Shown: positions 134-11,090 of the stretch, piece after piece
Layout: each line of letters starts with the position of its first letter
How positions within the stretch are numbered: position 1 is the first letter of the stretch
Source: Treponema sp.
GTDB lineage: Bacteria > Spirochaetota > Spirochaetia > Treponematales > Treponemataceae
Length of the DNA: 32,513 nt
Direction of reading: 5' to 3'
Assembly (NCBI GenBank): GCA_024699235.1
Contig: JAILPY010000165.1
Coordinates: forward strand, 1-32,513
Position numbers and translations under genes: made by a program
The notes under the pieces: model-generated
What the model saw: only the letters and a program-made list of their open reading frames with translations
The model's database searches: none
What the model was told of the DNA's origin: nothing

Positions 134-179
134 AATCGTTATATGCAGTGTGCAAAATCGTTATGTACACTGCGCAAAA
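134..179. repeat. two tandem imperfect 22-bp repeats
   Basis: The unit starting AATCGTTAT at 134 is repeated at 156, with about 18 of 22 positions the same. Both units end in a GCAAAA sequence. The copies also create an inverted pair: GCAGTGT (145-151, frame allowing) and ACACTGC (167-173). The element lies about 100 bp beyond the end of the WYL gene. Its function is unknown; it could be a protein-binding site or a relic of a mobile-element end. Confidence 0.4.
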
Positions 180-272: not shown

Positions 273-1334
273 TCATTCCGATTTACCGAGGTTTCCGTAC
301 GTCTTGAAAACCATATCTTTCCAGTCATCGACAAGCCTTTTCGGCTCTATCGGACGGGCATCAGGTCCCCATCCCATAACCCAGCGCAGTATCGGAAGGT
401 ACTGATTGTCTTCAAATTCTATTACCGTACCATTCCTGTCAGGCTTCACTGAGGGATTCAGGCCCCATACTCGTTCCCGGCAAAAGGTTTCTGCATAGCT
501 GTCCTTTTTAAGCCAGATCTTATATCGAGTCATTCCTTCTTCTTCTGGATCGCAAAAACATCCGAACGTTCCCGGCGTTACCGAATGAAAATCAAAATCC
601 TCCGGCAATATAAACCTGTCTGCGTCTTTCCTTATCGTTACATTCTTTATCCGTGAAAGGTTGTACAGCAATTTTTTTCTTTTCTTGCAGTCATACCCCC
701 AAAGGTCCCAGATGCCATCATCAAAAATAAGCTGATACGGTCTGACTCCCCTTTCGATGCTTTCAGAATGTCCAGAACTTGCATATTCAATGACTATATG
801 GTAGTTTCCTTCCATAGCCTTATATATATCGGCCCAGATTGAATCCCTTACACAACTTGCAGGAGCTCCAAGAAAGACTACACGGCTCACTGCAGTTTCA
901 TAAATCCTGTCCTCCTTTACTTCCTTTCCGTACCTATCCATCAAAGGAGCCTCTTTCGTTATTTCCTGGCATAACTCGCTTGCCTTTTCATATACAGGAG
1001 TATCCCTTATAGTTTCCAGAAGGCCGTTTATGAGCCGGATAGTCTTGCCTGTCTCTTCACGAGAAAGAAAGCCTGGCTTAGTAAGGGTCTTTGATTCACA
1101 GTAATACATCCTACCGTCAGGATCCTTTTCAAGAGGAACGTTAAGTTCCTCTTTCATTGCCTTAATCACTTTGTAAAGGATTTTTTCACTGAAGCCGCAG
1201 TTATTATCCCAGTCCGAATCATACTTTCTTTTATCAAAGTACTGTGCAAGTTCCTTGACGGAAGCCTTTTTTCCAGATGCAAAGTATTCATCAATCATCT
1301 GTATGCGCCTAAATTCATCCATGCCATAACCCAT
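273..1334 (-). CDS. WYL-domain transcriptional regulator
   Basis: A 353-residue DNA-binding regulator of the WYL family, whose WYL domain senses a ligand (often nucleic acid or nucleotide) and whose N-terminal helix-turn-helix binds DNA. The sequence shows an N-terminal helical HTH region (DEFRRIQMIDEYFASGKK, then VKELAQYF), a central WYL-like core around IWDLWGYD...LLYNLSRIKNV, and a C-terminal WCX-like extension ending near WKDMVFKTYGNL. The motif reads W-D-L rather than W-Y-L, so ligand contacts may differ. I chose the ATG at 1334 because AGAGGA lies 6 nt upstream. A longer frame from 1364 has no Shine-Dalgarno and starts inside the operator. It is divergent from the AAA gene at 1433. The 19-bp palindrome between them overlaps a TATTAT for this strand (1363-1368), which suggests autoregulation. 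Binding to that site is inference. Confidence 0.88.
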   Translation of the reverse strand: MGYGMDEFRRIQMIDEYFASGKKASVKELAQYFDKRKYDSDWDNNCGFSEKILYKVIKAMKEELNVPLEKDPDGRMYYCESKTLTKPGFLSREETGKTIRLINGLLETIRDTPVYEKASELCQEITKEAPLMDRYGKEVKEDRIYETAVSRVVFLGAPASCVRDSIWADIYKAMEGNYHIVIEYASSGHSESIERGVRPYQLIFDDGIWDLWGYDCKKRKKLLYNLSRIKNVTIRKDADRFILPEDFDFHSVTPGTFGCFCDPEEEGMTRYKIWLKKDSYAETFCRERVWGLNPSVKPDRNGTVIEFEDNQYLPILRWVMGWGPDARPIEPKRLVDDWKDMVFKTYGNLGKSE

Positions 1335-1356
1335 AAAAAATCCTCTGACGTAAGAT

Positions 1357-1375
1357 TTTCTCATAATATGAGAAA
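1357..1375. promoter_or_regulatory. operator copy 1, TTTCTCA-N5-TGAGAAA
   Basis: A perfect dyad, TTTCTCA (1357-1363), five bases, TGAGAAA (1369-1375), between the divergent WYL and AAA genes. An identical dyad with the same 5-nt spacer lies at 3196-3214 upstream of the second AAA gene. In both cases a TATTAT follows exactly 9 nt after the dyad. It is the likely binding site of the WYL regulator encoded next door. The sequence match is direct; the identity of the binder is inferred. Confidence 0.75.
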
Positions 1376-1384
1376 CGAATATTT

Positions 1385-1390
1385 TATTAT
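1385..1390 (+). promoter_or_regulatory. -10 box of the first AAA gene promoter
   Basis: TATTAT at 1385-1390 matches TATAAT in five of six positions. The position 17 nt upstream (1362-1367, CATAAT) is no -35 box and falls inside the operator, whose centre would sit near -31. This layout fits either a repressor covering the -35 region or an activator replacing it. The predicted start near 1397 leaves a leader of about 36 nt before the ATG at 1433. Confidence 0.5.
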
Positions 1391-1432
1391 ATATCCAGAA
1401 TGGCGGTAAAGCAAAGGAATAAGGATTTTATT

Positions 1433-3115
1433 ATGAAGACAATGGAATTCAATATAATTAAAGACATAGAAACTGTACGTAATTCTGCAGAAAAAAACAT
1501 GCTCTCCTTGGCCAGGACAAAGGAAGCTGATGCTGCACTCGTCCGCCTTAACGGATATTTCGGAACGGAAGAGATACAGACAGTCATCCTGTGCGCTGCA
1601 ATAGGCTTTTATTTTGAAGAAAGCGGAGATGTCCTTGAATACAGGAACCTGGCAAGATTCTTTGACGTTTCAATAATGCAGCTCCTCTTAAACAACGGAG
1701 ACATTGAAGTCCTGAAATCAAGGCAGTATCTTTTAAATGCAGAAAGTACTCGTCCTTTACGAATGAGGTTTTCTCAGCGGCAGGACCGGATGCTGCTAAA
1801 GGTAAACCGGAACTTGATTCAGTCCATACTTGAAAACAGGGAAATTTCCCTTTCCGACGATGAACCTGAAATCGATGAAATAGAATTCATTGTTAAAGTA
1901 GCGGAAAAAGTAGAGGAAAGGGAAAGCATCGGACAGAATACGGCCGACCTTCTTAAAGAACTTTCAGAATTCGAAGGAAGGCATCCAGAGATTCCTTTCA
2001 TAAAAGACACCTCTGCAATTCTAGACAGGATTGAAGACAGGATTCTTTTCTATTCCGTGTGCAGGGATTTCCTTAAGGGACGCTCAACGGGACTTGAAAC
2101 ACTGTTTTCTGACATTTATGATTCCGGCAGAGGTCTCAGGGAAACAAAACGCCTTCTGGAAGGAAGCCATCCCCTGATAAATGCTGCACTTGTAGAATTT
2201 GACAGGAAAGGTTCCATCTCACGTGCAAGCATTACGCTTGCTTCTGCAGGACAGAAACTTTTCCTAAAAGATAACAGTTACCTGTTTGACGCTCCTATAA
2301 ATGATGAGAATTTCATCAGTGCAGAAAAAATAGAAGAAAAAAAGCTCCTCTTTAACAAAGGGTTTACAGAACGCATCGATGAACTGAAAAGGTTCCTTGA
2401 AGAAAGTAAATTCTGTGAAATTCAGGATAGACTGCGGAAAAAGAAGATGAATCCAGGCCTTACGGTGCTTTTTTATGGCGAAAGCGGAACAGGAAAGACA
2501 GAAACCGTTTATCAGCTTGCAAAGGCAAGCGGACGCGGAGTGTATCATGTAGATATCGCCTCATTAAAATCCGCTTGGTTCGGAGACAGCGAAAAGGCTT
2601 TGAGGAAGGTATTCGCAAAATACAGGGCAGCATGTGATCAGGAAAAAAAATCTGGGCATCCCATTCCTGTACTCCTGTTTAACGAAGCTGATGCATTCTT
2701 CCGTACAAGGACCATTAACGATACTAGAAACATGAGCAGGACAGAAAATTCCATGCAGAATATCCTCCTTGAAGAACTTGAAAAAATCGATGGAATTCTG
2801 ATAGCAGCAACAAACCTTCCAGAATGCATGGACAGTGCCTTTTCAAGGCGATTTACCTTTAAGCTGGAATTTGAAATTCCAGATTCAGAAACTTCTGCTA
2901 ATATCTGGAAGGACAAGCTGGAATGGCTTTCTGATTCTCAGGCAGACAGACTCTCAAGGAATTATGCATTCAGCGGAGGATTTATAGATAACGTCTGTAA
3001 GAAGGCAACCATGTTTGAGACGCTATATAATCGACTTCCATCACAGGAAAGGATGGACCTTTACTGCAGCGAAGAAACAGCTTTACAGAAGTCTTTTCTT
3101 TCAACATCGAAATAA
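1433..3115 (+). CDS. single-domain AAA+ ATPase with an N-terminal helical region
   Basis: A 560-residue AAA+ ATPase of the SpoVK/FtsH-like broad group, expected to use ATP hydrolysis to remodel or unfold a protein partner. The first ~330 residues are helical; FGTEEIQTVILCAAIGFYFE near the start resembles the winged-helix region of related ATPases. The AAA domain has Walker A GESGTGKT (349-356), a pore-loop-like WFGDSEKALRKVF, Walker B LLFNEADAFF (Asn417 where Asp is usual), sensor-1 AATN and arginine-finger AFSRRF. The ATG at 1433 has AAGGA 7 nt upstream. An in-frame ATG at 1400 lacks a Shine-Dalgarno but lies close behind the -10 box, so a leaderless start 11 residues longer cannot be excluded. 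It stands 162 bp before the tandem-AAA gene, with no clear terminator between. The partner or substrate is unknown. Confidence 0.9.
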   Translation: MKTMEFNIIKDIETVRNSAEKNMLSLARTKEADAALVRLNGYFGTEEIQTVILCAAIGFYFEESGDVLEYRNLARFFDVSIMQLLLNNGDIEVLKSRQYLLNAESTRPLRMRFSQRQDRMLLKVNRNLIQSILENREISLSDDEPEIDEIEFIVKVAEKVEERESIGQNTADLLKELSEFEGRHPEIPFIKDTSAILDRIEDRILFYSVCRDFLKGRSTGLETLFSDIYDSGRGLRETKRLLEGSHPLINAALVEFDRKGSISRASITLASAGQKLFLKDNSYLFDAPINDENFISAEKIEEKKLLFNKGFTERIDELKRFLEESKFCEIQDRLRKKKMNPGLTVLFYGESGTGKTETVYQLAKASGRGVYHVDIASLKSAWFGDSEKALRKVFAKYRAACDQEKKSGHPIPVLLFNEADAFFRTRTINDTRNMSRTENSMQNILLEELEKIDGILIAATNLPECMDSAFSRRFTFKLEFEIPDSETSANIWKDKLEWLSDSQADRLSRNYAFSGGFIDNVCKKATMFETLYNRLPSQERMDLYCSEETALQKSFLSTSK

Positions 3116-3195
3116 TCCCAAGCCTTTGCCGAAATTTACGTTAAAATTCGCTTATATTTAAAATATTTCAAAAAAATTATAAAAAATTTTAGAAT

Positions 3196-3214
3196 TTTCT
3201 CACTTTTTGAGAAA
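3196..3214. promoter_or_regulatory. operator copy 2, TTTCTCA-N5-TGAGAAA
   Basis: TTTCTCA (3196-3202), CTTTT, TGAGAAA (3208-3214). The half-sites and their 5-nt spacing are identical to copy 1 at 1357-1375, and two further bases on the left (AT) also match. It lies in the 162-bp AT-rich gap before the tandem-AAA gene. With its T-rich loop it might be mistaken for a hairpin terminator, but the exact match to copy 1 and the conserved distance to TATTAT argue for an operator. Confidence 0.75.
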
Positions 3215-3223
3215 TCCACTTTA

Positions 3224-3229
3224 TATTAT
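3224..3229 (+). promoter_or_regulatory. -10 box of the second AAA gene promoter
   Basis: TATTAT at 3224-3229 is exactly 9 nt after operator copy 2, the same as at copy 1. There is no -35 hexamer at the expected place (3201-3206 reads CACTTT). The predicted start near 3236 gives a leader of about 42 nt ending in a GGAGG Shine-Dalgarno. Confidence 0.5.
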
Positions 3230-3277
3230 GTAAGCGTAGATCTGAGATTTCAAACATAAACTTATGGAGGAAACCTA

Positions 3278-5605
3278 ATGGAGCATAGAACCAGAAAGAT
3301 TATTAAAAGAAGATTCAGAGGGCGAAGCTGCAATTCATCATTAACGTATACTAAAGATGAACCTTATGCAATCTGTTTTTATCTGTACACTATCTTCGAA
3401 AACATACAGAATGTTTCACTTTTAAAGGATCATGAAGAAGTAATAAAAATCTTTTTAAAAAACATTAAAAGACTTAATAAAGCTGAACGCCTGGCAAAAG
3501 TCCTGTTATGCCAAATAAAAAATCTAGAAAAACAGAATATCTTAACTCCTAGTCATTTTCCTGCTAATGACGAAATGTGCTTTGAGGATACTAACATTCA
3601 TTACTACTATGAGCAGGATAAAAGCATTGACCGTGCTACTAGGTATTATGATGAGATTAATGAAGTCTTAATAAATCTTCTAAGAGTCTTGTACTTTACA
3701 GACAATCCGATTTTTTCGGCCATCATCAATACAACAGTATTCAGCAACACTTCAGATTATTCACTAAAGAATAATCTTCGCTTGCCAAAAAAGGTCGAGC
3801 AAGCAATCTTTGACATTTCAAAAACCCAGTTCCTGATTGACCAGGTAAAACTAAGTGAGAATGAAGCCAGGTTAATTCTTTTTAAATCACGATTTAATTC
3901 GATTGAAGAGTTACGAACCATTTCACGTTCTTTTGATGATGAAATAAAAATATTAACAGCAGATATGATTGGTGTATCTCAAAAAGAACTTAAATACATG
4001 CTTCATAATGACCAGAAGATTAAGTCATTCGGTTTTATAGACGAAGACGGAGACTTAGACTTAAGCATGAATGACTGCATCGAAGAACAAAGCATTGACC
4101 CTTATTTTACTGACTTACTCAAGCCTCTGGACTGCAGCAATTCCTATTCCTTGGACTCATTCTCTGCAAATGAAGAATCTGTTGAAATTTGTTTTGACCT
4201 GTTAAATGGAAACAGTCCTGTTTCAATTCTTTTTTACGGTAAGCCAGGAAGCGGAAAAACGGAACTCGCAAAGGCTATCTGCAAAAATACCGGAAAAAAA
4301 ATCTATATTTTCAAAAATGAATTGGAAACTGACGTAAATAAAAATATTCTTGGAAGGCTGGTATGCCTCCTTTCCATGGAACGGCAAGATTCTATAATCA
4401 TTGTTGATGAAGCCGACAGTATACTAAAGACTATTGAATTCTCTTTTTTGGGTCCTTACCCTTCCAAGTCAAAGGGAACTATAAACAAAATGCTTGAGAA
4501 CAATAAGGACAAGGTAATTTACATCATCAACCATCAGCAGCAGATTGATGAATCTACCAGAAGACGATTTACCTTCAGCATTAAATTTGAAGAAATGCCA
4601 TCTTCAATGCTTCATGCCATTGCAGAAACTAAGATTGCTACAATGGAAATATCACAAGATAATAAGGCTAAGATTCTTTCTTTGCTTGATAAGTATCACC
4701 TTACAGGCCAGAGCGTAGATAATATCGTAAAGACCATAGAAGGAATGACATGTAAAGATGAAGAAATATTATTAAAGAAAGTAGAAATCGTAATGAAAGA
4801 AAATTCTGTCCTTCTTAACGGAAAGGCAAAAATGCGTAATACCGTAAAAGCCGAATATGATCCGAAAGTTCTGAATGCATCTATGGATCCATTAAAAATC
4901 GTAGGGATGGTCAAGAATGCAGTAAAATTTGCAGAAAGGAATAAAGGAACCGAAAGCGGAATACGCATGCTTTTCTATGGATTGAGTGGAACAGGAAAGA
5001 CAGAACTGGGCAGATACATCTCAGAAAAACTTGGAAAACAGATTATTTTAAAGCGGGCAAGTGACATATTGGGTAAATTCGTTGGTCAAAATGAAGAAAA
5101 TATCCGTACAGCCTTTGCCGAAGCAGAAAGTTCAGGTTCAATACTCCTCTTTGACGAAGCGGACAGTTTTTTCTACGACAGGAACAAGGCACAATACAGC
5201 TGGGAACGCACTGCCGTAAATGAATTCCTTACCCAAATGGAAGAGTTTTCTGGCATTCTCATCTGTACTACTAATTTAAGGAATGTCATGGACCCTGCTA
5301 TGCAGAGACGATTTCACATTATGGTAGAGTTCAAGCCTATGAAGTTTGATGGCATAAAAATTATGGCAGAACGGTACTTTCCTGCCTATCACCTTTCTAA
5401 CAGTCAGATTGAAGAACTTGAAGACATGGAAAGCGTTACTCCAGGTGATTTTGGAGTATTAGCAAGCCGCATACGCTTCTTGGATTCTGACGACATAAAC
5501 TCTGATTACATTCTGTCAGAACTAAAAAAGTTCCAGGAAGAAAAGAAATGTGATTGGGAATCCGAAATTAATGGAAGAGAACATAGGATTGGTTTTTATG
5601 CGTAA
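3278..5605 (+). CDS. tandem AAA+ ATPase (two AAA domains)
   Basis: A 775-residue protein with a ~310-residue helical N-terminal region and two AAA+ domains. Domain 1 has Walker A GKPGSGKT (from residue 321), Walker B IIIVDEAD (Asp377-Glu378) and STRRRF at the arginine-finger position. It resembles the less canonical first domain of large COG0464-type ATPases. Domain 2 has Walker A GLSGTGKT (from 568), GKFVGQNEENIRTAF, Walker B ILLFDEAD (Asp626), sensor-1 CTTN and AMQRRF. Both domains look able to bind ATP. Domain 2 resembles the single AAA domain of the upstream gene, so the pair may have arisen by duplication or form a mixed ring. The start ATG follows GGAGG by 7 nt. A 13-nt gap to the coiled-coil gene suggests a two-gene unit. 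The gene looks more AT-rich than the first AAA gene. Function is unknown. Confidence 0.9.
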   Translation: MEHRTRKIIKRRFRGRSCNSSLTYTKDEPYAICFYLYTIFENIQNVSLLKDHEEVIKIFLKNIKRLNKAERLAKVLLCQIKNLEKQNILTPSHFPANDEMCFEDTNIHYYYEQDKSIDRATRYYDEINEVLINLLRVLYFTDNPIFSAIINTTVFSNTSDYSLKNNLRLPKKVEQAIFDISKTQFLIDQVKLSENEARLILFKSRFNSIEELRTISRSFDDEIKILTADMIGVSQKELKYMLHNDQKIKSFGFIDEDGDLDLSMNDCIEEQSIDPYFTDLLKPLDCSNSYSLDSFSANEESVEICFDLLNGNSPVSILFYGKPGSGKTELAKAICKNTGKKIYIFKNELETDVNKNILGRLVCLLSMERQDSIIIVDEADSILKTIEFSFLGPYPSKSKGTINKMLENNKDKVIYIINHQQQIDESTRRRFTFSIKFEEMPSSMLHAIAETKIATMEISQDNKAKILSLLDKYHLTGQSVDNIVKTIEGMTCKDEEILLKKVEIVMKENSVLLNGKAKMRNTVKAEYDPKVLNASMDPLKIVGMVKNAVKFAERNKGTESGIRMLFYGLSGTGKTELGRYISEKLGKQIILKRASDILGKFVGQNEENIRTAFAEAESSGSILLFDEADSFFYDRNKAQYSWERTAVNEFLTQMEEFSGILICTTNLRNVMDPAMQRRFHIMVEFKPMKFDGIKIMAERYFPAYHLSNSQIEELEDMESVTPGDFGVLASRIRFLDSDDINSDYILSELKKFQEEKKCDWESEINGREHRIGFYA

Positions 5606-5618
5606 GGAAGCAATAGAT

Positions 5619-6122
5619 ATGAATTCGAAGATCACAATAGAAGGAATTGAATTTGATGCAAACTGGACAAAAAAGGACTACACCATTACATGCAATATTG
5701 GAGACCTCCGATTTAAAGACTCTTGCCACATGATGTACATGAGCCCTAAGTCTTACAATGAAGAAGAAATTCGTAAAAGATGCGAGAAATTACTTCCTGA
5801 ATATATTGAAACTGCTAAAATAATAACTGAAAATAAGGAATTATTAAGTGAAAAAAAGGAATTCCTCTCAAAAATTAAATCTGATATTAATGCAGCCAAT
5901 GATAAACTTAATTCGAATCGAAAGCAACTAAAAAAGCAACTTAAGGAAGGAATTCTCACACAAAAAGAGTATCAGGCAAAGATTTCTGACTTAAAGAATG
6001 AGAAAGATGAAATTATAATAAAATCTAGAGATTTAATGATTAATTTAGCACAAGAGATATCTGCATCTAAACCTCAGTGTTCCAGACTGATTTATTATTA
6101 TCTGAATAATATGATGGAATAA
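5619..6122 (+). CDS. small coiled-coil protein, partner of the AAA ATPases
   Basis: A 167-residue protein I do not recognise. Residues 1-45 form a short strand-rich segment (ITIEGIEFDANW...YTITCNIGDLRF). Residues ~55-140 are rich in Lys, Glu and Ile with heptad-like spacing, so a long coiled coil is expected. The tail (QCSRLIYYYLNNMME) is more hydrophobic. There is no signal peptide or membrane segment. I chose the ATG at 5619 because TAAGGAAG, which overlaps the stop of the tandem-AAA gene, sits 8 nt upstream. A longer frame would run back into that gene. The tight spacing suggests translational coupling, and a role as adaptor or substrate of the ATPase (inference). A weak hairpin (6140-6152) followed by ATATATTTCTT may end the transcript. 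Confidence 0.8.
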   Translation: MNSKITIEGIEFDANWTKKDYTITCNIGDLRFKDSCHMMYMSPKSYNEEEIRKRCEKLLPEYIETAKIITENKELLSEKKEFLSKIKSDINAANDKLNSNRKQLKKQLKEGILTQKEYQAKISDLKNEKDEIIIKSRDLMINLAQEISASKPQCSRLIYYYLNNMME

Positions 6123-8002: not shown

Positions 8003-9346
8003 TTATGAAATTCTGTCAAATTTTCCCTTATGCTGCATAAAGGCAAAAATAAAGATGCAGATTAATACAGACAGCAATGAACCTAAAGGCGCAGCAAGTC
8101 CCATTGCATACAGAGTCTTTGGAAAGCATACGGCAGCTAAGTACGCTCCCGGTATGCGCACTACAATAATAGAACAAACATTATGGATAAAAGATACTAT
8201 TGAAAAACCGTATGCACTGAAAAAACCGCTGAATGGAAAATGAATTCCTGCAAATACGCAGTCAAATACATAAGTTTTTAAGTATTGGGTACCTAATTCT
8301 ATTACCGTTTCATCTTCCGTAAAAAATGAAAGCACAGGCCTAGATGCAAGCTGAAAGACCAAGGCAAAAAAAACTCCAATGCCTGCAGCCATAGACGCTC
8401 CTGCAAATAAAGTTTTCTTAGCCCTGCCGTATTCACCGGCACCAATGTTTTGGGCTGAAATAGCAGATACGGCAGAAAGTACTGTAGAAGGTACAAGAAA
8501 AAGGAAGCATATTATTTTTTCAACTATGCCTACAGCAGCTGCAACATCAACTCCCCTTCTGTTTGCTATTACAGTAATTAACAGAAACGAAACCTGAATA
8601 AAGCCGTCCTGGGCCGCTATAGGAAGACCTATAGACATCATCTGAGAATAATGACTGCCGGCAAATGAAAAATCTTTTTTTGAAAGATGAATTCCCATGT
8701 CAAATTTCTTTATGGCGCACGCAGCACACAAGACGCTAAAGCCCTGAGCCGCAACCGTTCCATAAGCAGCCCCAGACGCTCCCATTCCAAAAATGCCAAT
8801 GAAAACATAATCAAGGACAATGTTAAGTATGCAGGCTATTGCAATAAAAATCATAGGGCTTTTTGAATCTCCCATGCCCCTGAATATTGAACTGATAATA
8901 TTATATGCAATAATAAATGGAATGCCTGCAAAACATATTCTCAGGTACCGTTTTGTTTCTATAACAGACTCAGATGGCGTAGACATGACAGAAACAATGG
9001 CAGATGTAAATAAAAGCAGGACTATGCTTGCAATTACTGCAATTACAGAAAACAGGATTATTGTACTGCCTATAATGCCAGATATATCTTTTGTCTTACC
9101 GGCACCAACGGCACGGCTTATTAATACTGTAGTTCCTGTTGCAAGACCAACTATTATAACAGTAATCATATGCATAATCTGAGACCCTATGGCAACTGCA
9201 GAAATTACATCTGCACTGTTAAACTGACCTACTATAAACAAATCTGCAAGACCGTACAGGGTCTGTAAAAAATAAGAAAGTAAAAATGGAAGTGAAAAAA
9301 GAATAATATTTTTGGAAATGCTTCCTTTCGTAAGATTATATGTCAT
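8003..9346 (-). CDS. MATE-family multidrug/metabolite exporter
   Basis: A 447-residue inner-membrane protein with about twelve hydrophobic segments in two related halves. The N-terminus (TKGSISKNIILFSLPFLLSYFLQTLYGLADLFIVGQF) and the GTTVLISRAVGAG segment are typical of MATE transporters, which export cationic compounds using a Na+ or H+ gradient. The second half starts with an SIGLPIAAQDGFIQV segment. The length is usual for the family. The substrate is unknown. The ATG at 9346 has no clear Shine-Dalgarno. It follows the terminator of the tRNA-Leu gene, so it may have its own weak promoter (GATATT 8 nt before the ATG) or depend on read-through. Confidence 0.92.
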   Translation of the reverse strand: MTYNLTKGSISKNIILFSLPFLLSYFLQTLYGLADLFIVGQFNSADVISAVAIGSQIMHMITVIIVGLATGTTVLISRAVGAGKTKDISGIIGSTIILFSVIAVIASIVLLLFTSAIVSVMSTPSESVIETKRYLRICFAGIPFIIAYNIISSIFRGMGDSKSPMIFIAIACILNIVLDYVFIGIFGMGASGAAYGTVAAQGFSVLCAACAIKKFDMGIHLSKKDFSFAGSHYSQMMSIGLPIAAQDGFIQVSFLLITVIANRRGVDVAAAVGIVEKIICFLFLVPSTVLSAVSAISAQNIGAGEYGRAKKTLFAGASMAAGIGVFFALVFQLASRPVLSFFTEDETVIELGTQYLKTYVFDCVFAGIHFPFSGFFSAYGFSIVSFIHNVCSIIVVRIPGAYLAAVCFPKTLYAMGLAAPLGSLLSVLICIFIFAFMQHKGKFDRIS

Positions 9347-9371
9347 GCCGAAAGAATATCAAAAAAGAGAA

Positions 9372-9404
9372 TAAAAAAAAAGGACTGCTTTTTAGCAGTC
9401 CTTT
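9372..9404 (-). terminator. terminator of tRNA-Leu
   Basis: An 8-bp stem, AGGACTGC (9381-9388) with GCAGTCCT (9395-9402), followed on the minus strand by a run of eight to nine T. It lies directly 3' of the tRNA. Confidence 0.9.
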
Positions 9405-9406
9405 AA

Positions 9407-9488
9407 TGCGGAGAACCTGACTTGAACAGGCACAGCTCTCGCCACTAGCACCTCAAGCTAGCGTGTCTACCAATTCCACCATCCCCGC
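9407..9488 (-). tRNA. tRNA-Leu, anticodon GAG
   Basis: An 82-nt class II tRNA on the minus strand. The acceptor stem GCGGGGA pairs with TCTCCGC (one G-U) and the discriminator is A. The D-arm contains GGTAGACAC. The anticodon stem CTAGC/GCTAG encloses loop TTGAGGT, so the anticodon is GAG and it reads CUU/CUC. There is a long variable arm (TGGCGAGAGCTGT), and the T-arm reads GCCTG TTCAAGT CAGGT. CCA is not encoded. It has its own promoter and terminator. Confidence 0.97.
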
Positions 9489-9504
9489 GCTTGAATGTGA
9501 CTAC

Positions 9505-9533
9505 ACTATACACTTATGACAGAATCGTGTCAA
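9505..9533 (-). promoter_or_regulatory. promoter of tRNA-Leu
   Basis: Minus strand TTGACA (9528-9533), 17-nt spacer, TATAGT (9505-9510), 16 nt before the mature tRNA 5' end. It lies in the 75-bp gap after the chemotaxis gene, where I see no terminator. Confidence 0.85.
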
Positions 9534-9563
9534 GTATAAAGTCTTAAAATTTTAAAAATAAAA

Positions 9564-11090
9564 TTACAAAAGTCTAGCAATATTCTTTACATTTTGTGAA
9601 GAAGAAGAAATGCTTTCTGTCGTCTGACTGAAATTTTCAATGCCAACAGCAATCTGCTTAATTGTAGAATAAATCTGTTCATGAGAAGCTGCAAGCTGGA
9701 TTATAAATTCTGCTATATCATTACTGCTATTAGCCGTTTCTTCAGAAGACTTCTTTATGCTTGCAAACTGCCCCTGCAGGGACTTAATGCTATCATATCC
9801 AGAAGTGATTTTTTCAGAACCCTTTTCACCGACAAGAATCAAAGAATCTGAAGCTCCCTGGATTTCACCAATTTTTTCCTTGATTTCCTTTGTTCCATCA
9901 ATGATATTATCAGAAAGCCTTCTCACTTCACTGGCAACAATATGAAAATTCTTTCCGTACTCTCCAGCACTGTTAGCTTCTAGTTCTGCATTAAAGGCTA
10001 TTATCTTTGCCTGAGATGCAATATCATTGATAAGCGTTACAACTTCCCAAATATTATTAATCTTATCGCCTAAGTCTTTTATCCCTTCAATAGTAAGCTT
10101 ATTGGTTTCCATGACATCAAGAAGTTCATGAATATTCCTGTCCAGATATTCAACGCCTATAAGAACATCCTCTTTTGCCTTTTCAGAAGTCTCAGACACG
10201 CTTTTAAGCTTTTCATTTATATTTTTTGAAAGATTATTAGTATCTTCGATTGTCGAAACAATTTCCTTTACAGCAGTACTTTGCTCCACACTTGTAGCTG
10301 CAGACTCTTTTGTTGCAACTGCAAGATTCATAGTTTCAACATACAGGTTCTTACTGATTAATTTTTCAGTATCCCTTATTTTTTTTACCAGCAAAGAATA
10401 CGTCACATAACAGACAGCTACAGTAAGAATACCTGCGACAATAGAGTCACGAATAAAAATAATTAACAGATTTCCATCAGAACGCCCCATAAGAAGACCT
10501 ATAGGAACAGTCATCATGTTAAATATTGAAATGTAAACGCTTGCCGTTATTGCAACAGAAAGGGTCTTTGACAGGTCATTATTAATGCTGATGCCTACTT
10601 CCTGCAAAGCTTCAGCCATAATAATCCTTTTAATTCTAAAAACTACAAGAGTATAGCATATAAATCCAACTCCAATAGACTGCAATACAATAATAATAAA
10701 CAGCATAGGATTGAATTTTTCTACTCCAGTTAAAGACTCAACAACTGCAGTTGAGCCTGATCCCAGAAAAAAGCCAATGCCTTCTCCAATTGCTATCGCT
10801 ACGTCAAATTTCCTATATGCCTCAATGCATTTTACAGCATCTTCCTCTGACATTTTTTCCTTACTTTTTTTTGCACGATTAATTAATATTTCAAATGGGG
10901 ACAATATTTTATATTCAAATATGCATACTATAAGTATTAAGAATGCAGTAATTATGACAGTCGGTATACAGTCAAAAAAGATGCTGGAAGGCCTTCTATA
11001 TATAAAACCAAAATGAAATATACGGAGAAAAAATACTCCGCAGTACGTCAATATAATAACATATTTTAAAAAAGTTCTGAAAATTTTCAT
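9564..11090 (-). CDS. methyl-accepting chemotaxis-type receptor with a multi-pass membrane sensor
   Basis: A 508-residue protein. The N-terminal ~240 residues carry five or six hydrophobic segments (for example IIMIVLQS-like FIIIVLQSIGVGFICYTLVVF and SIVAGILTVAVCYVTYSLLV) with only short loops, so there is no periplasmic ligand domain and sensing is probably within the membrane. The C-terminal ~230 residues form the long helical signalling domain. The hairpin tip reads IIAFNAELEANSAGEYGKNF, then HIVASEVRRLSDN. This is clearly the MCP motif but diverges from the usual LNAAIEAARAGE, so coupling to CheA/CheW may differ. The start at 11090 is chosen because a strong promoter ends 6 nt before this ATG. 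The longer frame from 11171 begins inside the gltX terminator hairpin. There is no Shine-Dalgarno, so a leaderless mRNA is likely. Confidence 0.88.
   Translation of the reverse strand: MKIFRTFLKYVIILTYCGVFFLRIFHFGFIYRRPSSIFFDCIPTVIITAFLILIVCIFEYKILSPFEILINRAKKSKEKMSEEDAVKCIEAYRKFDVAIAIGEGIGFFLGSGSTAVVESLTGVEKFNPMLFIIIVLQSIGVGFICYTLVVFRIKRIIMAEALQEVGISINNDLSKTLSVAITASVYISIFNMMTVPIGLLMGRSDGNLLIIFIRDSIVAGILTVAVCYVTYSLLVKKIRDTEKLISKNLYVETMNLAVATKESAATSVEQSTAVKEIVSTIEDTNNLSKNINEKLKSVSETSEKAKEDVLIGVEYLDRNIHELLDVMETNKLTIEGIKDLGDKINNIWEVVTLINDIASQAKIIAFNAELEANSAGEYGKNFHIVASEVRRLSDNIIDGTKEIKEKIGEIQGASDSLILVGEKGSEKITSGYDSIKSLQGQFASIKKSSEETANSSNDIAEFIIQLAASHEQIYSTIKQIAVGIENFSQTTESISSSSQNVKNIARLL

Follow-up and report, generated by a model that had tools for sequence, protein, structure and literature searches.

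At the left end of a contig from a gut Treponema, a WYL-domain regulator, two AAA+ ATPases and a small coiled-coil protein are encoded side by side, and one palindromic operator is found at two positions among them. This raises the question of whether the four products work as parts of a single machine, as was proposed when the DNA was read by sequence only, or whether the genes are held together by common control. The window, by which we mean the whole stretch of 32,513 nucleotides that was analysed, makes up the left end of contig C82 in a 2.81-Mb draft genome. Since it begins at the contig's left edge, the left neighbour of the locus is out of view, and an effector could lie to the left of position 1. 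Close to the same edge there is a tandem direct repeat of 22 nt, its copies 82% alike (window 134-177).

The four ORFs are indeed present together, and Pfam finds the WYL and AAA domains expected of them. Gene starts were taken from ribosome-binding sites and are slightly internal to the ORFs: the WYL ORF opens at 1364, with its likely start at 1334, and the AAA1 ORF opens at 1400, with its start at 1433. The features of the locus are as follows.

273..1334, reverse strand: WYL-domain regulator, 353 aa, winged HTH - WYL (PF13280) - putative WCX, with the ribosome-binding site AGAGGA ahead of 1334
1358..1374, no strand: operator 1, TTCTCATAATATGAGAA, in the WYL/AAA1 intergenic region, one of only two TTCTCA-N5-TGAGAA sites in the genome
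1385..1390, forward strand: TATTAT, the -10 element for AAA1, exactly 10 nt past operator 1 (composite match C82:1358-1390)
1433..3115, forward strand: AAA1, ATPase with a single AAA domain (PF00004, 84 bits), 560 aa, NEAD as Walker B
3197..3213, no strand: operator 2, TTCTCACTTTTTGAGAA, a TTCTCA-N5-TGAGAA palindrome in the AAA2 upstream region
3224..3229, forward strand: TATTAT, the -10 element for AAA2, exactly 10 nt past operator 2 (composite match C82:3197-3229)
3278..5605, forward strand: AAA2, ATPase with two AAA domains in tandem (two PF00004 stretches), 775 aa, made up of a helical N domain, D1 and D2
5619..6122, forward strand: coiled-coil protein, 167 aa, behind a 14-nt gap after the AAA2 stop

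The regulator matches PF13280 with 41.7 bits (Pfam cut-off 21.8), and its putative WCX domain reaches 22.3 bits, just short of the cut-off of 23.9. AAA1 has one PF00004 domain, in which the Walker B motif reads NEAD, with Asn for Asp, instead of DEAD in all 28 homologues; its predicted structure, from an alignment of two sequences only, has a mean pLDDT of 38, too low to describe the N domain. Both AAA domains of AAA2 carry Walker A and B motifs, that of D2 being DEAD in 27/27. The AAA2 model (mean pLDDT 77) consists of an all-helical N domain at about residues 25-270 followed by the two AAA domains, and its best Foldseek matches are Rix7, p97 and Cdc48, with low whole-chain TM-scores of about 0.25. 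A Pfam search with the coiled-coil protein gave no family. Its gene is probably in one operon with AAA2, because the two are 14 nt apart and no operator lies between them. The same genome also has a second, shortened AAA2-like gene, on a 3.7-kb contig with an integrase-like ORF beside it (G000:C106; L065:1568-2698, 2923-3624).

A fixed operator-to-promoter geometry

The perfect palindrome TTCTCA-N5-TGAGAA occurs at 1358-1374 and 3197-3213 and at no third place in the 2.81 Mb of the window's genome, where the reversed control pattern gives no match at all; nor does any nuclease or toxin gene in this genome carry the operator. The duplicated operator that had been taken to link the genes is thus real, and its only two copies in the genome are both at this locus. 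It seems somewhat more likely than not that the locus is the whole visible regulon of its WYL protein in this genome.

The distance from the operator to the -10 element is invariant. Of the non-WYL targets selected only for the palindrome, 21/21 have a TAnnnT hexamer that starts exactly 10 nt past the operator; a larger set, some of it picked with the help of the motif, gives 37/39, the two misses being a truncated WYL gene and a gene to the wrong side of its site. These promoters have no -35 box, the best match being 2.5 of six letters versus 3.0 in shuffled sequence. On the assumption of a normal start site, the operator spans about -39 to -23, so that its proximal half-site covers about -28 to -23 and is centred near -26. 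Operator 1 also overlaps the upstream region of the WYL gene, and is thereby an inverted repeat at the regulator's own promoter.

In 274 genomes of the family, the 33-nt composite TTCTCA-N5-TGAGAA-N10-TAnnnT has 52 matches, versus 9 for the reversed pattern. All 13 genomes with a close WYL have the composite promoter, as compared with 12 of the 261 others (p about 9e-16). At least two of these 12 motif-bearing genomes without a WYL at the cut-off (G234 and G214) contain a truncated or degraded WYL gene adjoining AAA2, and a further one, G104, has a more distant WYL.

A regulator clade linked to one operator and one ATPase

With an alignment of WYL proteins we collected 45 loci, every one of them from a spirochaete (Treponema or another), and split them into 11 with a WYL nearest to that of the window and 34 with other WYLs; most of the relatives compared are metagenome assemblies. 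When all 6-N5-6 palindromes were counted de novo in the 11 near loci, TTCTCA came out with 16 copies and the next palindrome with 2. The operator is present in every one of the 11 and in none of the 34 (p about 1e-10). In the WYL tree, the window and L151-L153 form a clade of four (100/99) within a clade of 14 rows (100/95). The TTCTCA-bearing WYLs make up one clade (100/95), one member of which, L185, is without the operator; a distant WYL, that of G104, also comes with TTCTCA sites. A close-clade WYL is found in 13/274 family genomes. AAA2 adjoins it in 10 of the 11 near loci, the eleventh contig being too short to judge, and with the window and G091 added, in all 12 loci that can be assessed.

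The other two genes are far less faithful. Orthologues of AAA1, 51-57% identical, exist in G243 and G249, which brings AAA1 at 50% identity or more to three genomes including that of the window. In G243, another Treponema (locus L153), the order WYL/operator/AAA1/AAA2 is as in the window, with three operators, and the notion that the AAA1/AAA2 gene pair is unique to the window's genome was ruled out by this layout. In G249, AAA1 lies on another contig and starts about 50 nt past the same promoter. The coiled-coil gene is directly behind AAA2 in only 2 of 15 WYL-positive or borderline genomes, namely the window's and that of L156, where the protein is 37% identical. Single-protein queries of IMG/VR contigs, which reach close relatives only, found nothing related to AAA1, AAA2 or the coiled-coil protein; a phage-borne origin of the module was set aside on this result.

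The sequence-only reading had joined all four proteins into one system and called for a co-occurrence search across genomes. That search returned a single constant pair, WYL and AAA2, and a four-protein complex as one conserved system was rejected on it. A narrower version, in which AAA1, AAA2 and the coiled-coil protein build one mixed or sequential machine, could draw on the operator common to the genes and on the three-gene cluster kept in L153. However, AAA2 mostly occurs without an AAA1 or coiled-coil partner, and the homologues of AAA1 and AAA2 are mostly on different contigs (for example in G091, G110, G084 and G109), and we regard such a machine as improbable. What links the genes appears to be shared control; the comparison of relatives lends no support to physical assembly of the proteins. 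The WYL protein and AAA2 are probably the core of a small WYL regulon, as suggested by the uniqueness of the operator, its tracking of the WYL clade, the adjacency of AAA2, the shared composite promoter and the existence of other targets.

These other targets are varied. In relatives, TTCTCA promoters precede GmrSD restriction genes (L069/L160), a gene for a DnaB-like protein (L153) and many genes without recognised function; a FliM-like protein is encoded directly behind such a promoter in L156 and as the second gene after one in L159. FliM-like proteins (PF02154 + FliMN_C) occur in accessory arrays by AAA genes at L156:4908-6236 and L159:4679-5860, and likewise near AAA genes at L073:4965-6107 and 8620-9873 and L102:7609-8787. 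A voltage-gated-type ion channel (PF00520) lies behind a TTCTCA promoter at L228:579-1448. One protein without assigned function (MSLMSLGIKINAL...) recurs in several genomes behind TTCTCA promoters (L159:5877-6398, L229:883-1446, L237:89-355), and the one copy searched had no match in Pfam or PADLOC. For eight further TTCTCA targets Pfam and PADLOC gave no defence family, and the idea that all targets are recognisable defence genes was dropped.

A sister operator, CTATCA-N5-TGATAG, tops the palindrome count in AAA1-type loci (19 copies, the next having 4) and precedes Abi_2, PD-(D/E)XK nuclease, SNF2, RtcB, FliG_C and DnaB-like genes. Its -10 element is at +10 or +11, ahead of varied genes in islands (L085-L104, L131-L150), and a single T. 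bryantii contig of 240 kb has about ten such sites. At L101:9368-10129, L098:6845-7696, L079:10827-11570 and L136:7323-8108, FliG_C proteins about 250 aa long adjoin AAA genes or stand behind the CTATCA operator. The window may be read as the smallest form of such a regulon.

The description of the locus as a regulated accessory module was borne out: the operator is shared, the layout recurs in L153 and AAA1 is under the same promoter in G249. As the promoter signature in relatives also precedes phage-defence, helicase and flagellar-switch-like genes, the genes are probably a stress- or infection-triggered set and not one four-part machine. GmrSD behind TTCTCA and the Abi_2 and nuclease genes behind the sister operator fit the proposed response to stress or phage, and a role in defence would be consistent with them.

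Mode of control and rival readings

We favour, at somewhat better than even confidence, a ligand-responsive WYL activator that runs AAA1 as well as the AAA2/coiled-coil gene pair. A WYL dimer would bind TTCTCA-N5-TGAGAA in front of AAA1 and in front of AAA2 and the coiled-coil gene, and, by analogy with PafBC at its -26 motif, would activate by replacing the missing -35 contact; the operator lies at a fixed 10 nt from the -10 element. The regulator may also damp its own gene, where the operator sits downstream of a shared AT-rich -10, a position that would suit negative autoregulation. The WYL protein probably senses a nucleic acid that signals damage or infection, given that PafBC and DriD respond to ssDNA. 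The predicted products are a double-ring unfoldase of Cdc48/Rix7 type (AAA2) and a single-ring AAA protein with an altered Walker B motif (AAA1), which may remodel target proteins under stress or phage attack; in the window's strain, the coiled-coil protein would be a partner or substrate. Several findings speak against this reading: 12 genomes have the motif but no WYL at the cut-off, no nuclease or toxin gene is under the operator in the window's genome, and PafBC is a heterodimer on a non-palindromic site.

The direction of control might be the opposite, with the WYL protein acting as a repressor of BrxR/CapW type that covers the -35 region at both ATPase genes, keeps RNA polymerase out and is freed by a ligand made during infection. 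The closest studied WYL regulators of defence genes, BrxR and CapW, do repress (PMC9122601, PMC9122588), BrxR sites too have 5-bp spacers, and an operator over the -35 region would also suit blocking. However, a blocking site need not be placed to the exact base, as it is in all 21 targets, and the want of a recognisable -35 is what one expects if the regulator is required for promoter recognition. Because one operator arm lies near -26, the position of the PafB contact, whereas BrxR and CapW bind on or behind the -10, we infer activation to be about twice as likely as repression, which is still worth serious consideration. That the operator belongs to another regulator, the WYL gene being a mere neighbour, is very improbable. 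A candidate would be the small XRE-type HTH protein by AAA2, whose gene separates WYL from AAA2 in L066 and L156, but the window, L151, L153, L155 and L157 have the operator without this gene, and the operator tracks the WYL clade.

As regards the inducing condition, a module for DNA damage or general stress instead of phage defence is a substantial possibility, though one we place a little below even. PafBC, DriD and SiwR are WYL activators of responses to damage or genotoxic stress, and among the genes behind the sister operator are those for RtcB, an SNF2 helicase and DnaB-like ATPases. On the other hand, GmrSD, Abi_2 and PD-(D/E)XK nucleases are among the operator-linked genes, and the islands differ between close relatives.

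If the favoured activator does work at -26, the sigma adaptation known from mycobacteria would extend to spirochaetes, to defence-type genes and to a palindromic site. From the 33-nt pattern, members of the WYL regulon can be predicted throughout Treponema genomes, even where they have no assigned function or lie on other contigs. The pattern also suggests that AAA+ unfoldases are candidate effectors controlled by infection or damage, and that paralogues of flagellar switch proteins belong to the same regulon. A wider and rather unlikely proposal is that TTCTCA and CTATCA promoters, WYL-dependent, -35-less and with a fixed -10, form an inducible accessory regulon of Treponema that co-controls AAA+ unfoldases, restriction enzymes and extra FliM-/FliG-like switch proteins, such that stress or infection would both switch on defence and rebuild or slow the flagellar motor.

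Comparison with known systems

IetA, the AAA ATPase of the IetAS anti-phage system, is the best NCBIfam and PADLOC match of both AAA proteins, but the scores are 88.8 and 111.3 bits where the cut-off is 510, and membership of IetAS was rejected on these scores. AAA2 differs from IetA in having two AAA domains, and no subtilisin-like protease IetS was seen by eye among the neighbouring ORFs, the left side of the contig being missing. With Cdc48/p97 and Rix7/NVL, AAA2 shares two classical AAA domains, whereas its N domain is an unrelated helical one and its TIGR01243 score is 75 bits versus 803.

Among regulators, BrxR and CapW, the WYL repressors of BREX and CBASS, share with the window's regulator a wHTH-WYL layout (the WCX domain that follows being just under the cut-off here), an inverted-repeat site and adjoining accessory genes. 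However, their sites lie over or behind the -10, while here the operator ends 10 nt before the -10 of AAA1 and AAA2, and neither BREX nor CBASS genes are present. DriD, the Caulobacter WYL activator of DNA-damage genes, likewise serves several target promoters, and the WYL protein described here would resemble it in activating them, but DriD sites are at varied positions and its targets are unrelated. A parallel in promoter architecture is the mycobacterial activator PafBC, which combines a -26 promoter motif, sigma adaptation and an ssDNA ligand (PMC11804915), with PafB contacting the promoter near -26 while PafC holds sigma region 4 (PMC11804915, PMC12340889). PafBC is a heterodimer on a non-palindromic site, in another phylum and with other targets, whereas the Treponema locus has a single WYL gene and a perfect palindrome; in both, the regulator's site adjoins the -10 on its upstream side and takes the position of a -35, and here the proximal half-site is centred near -26.
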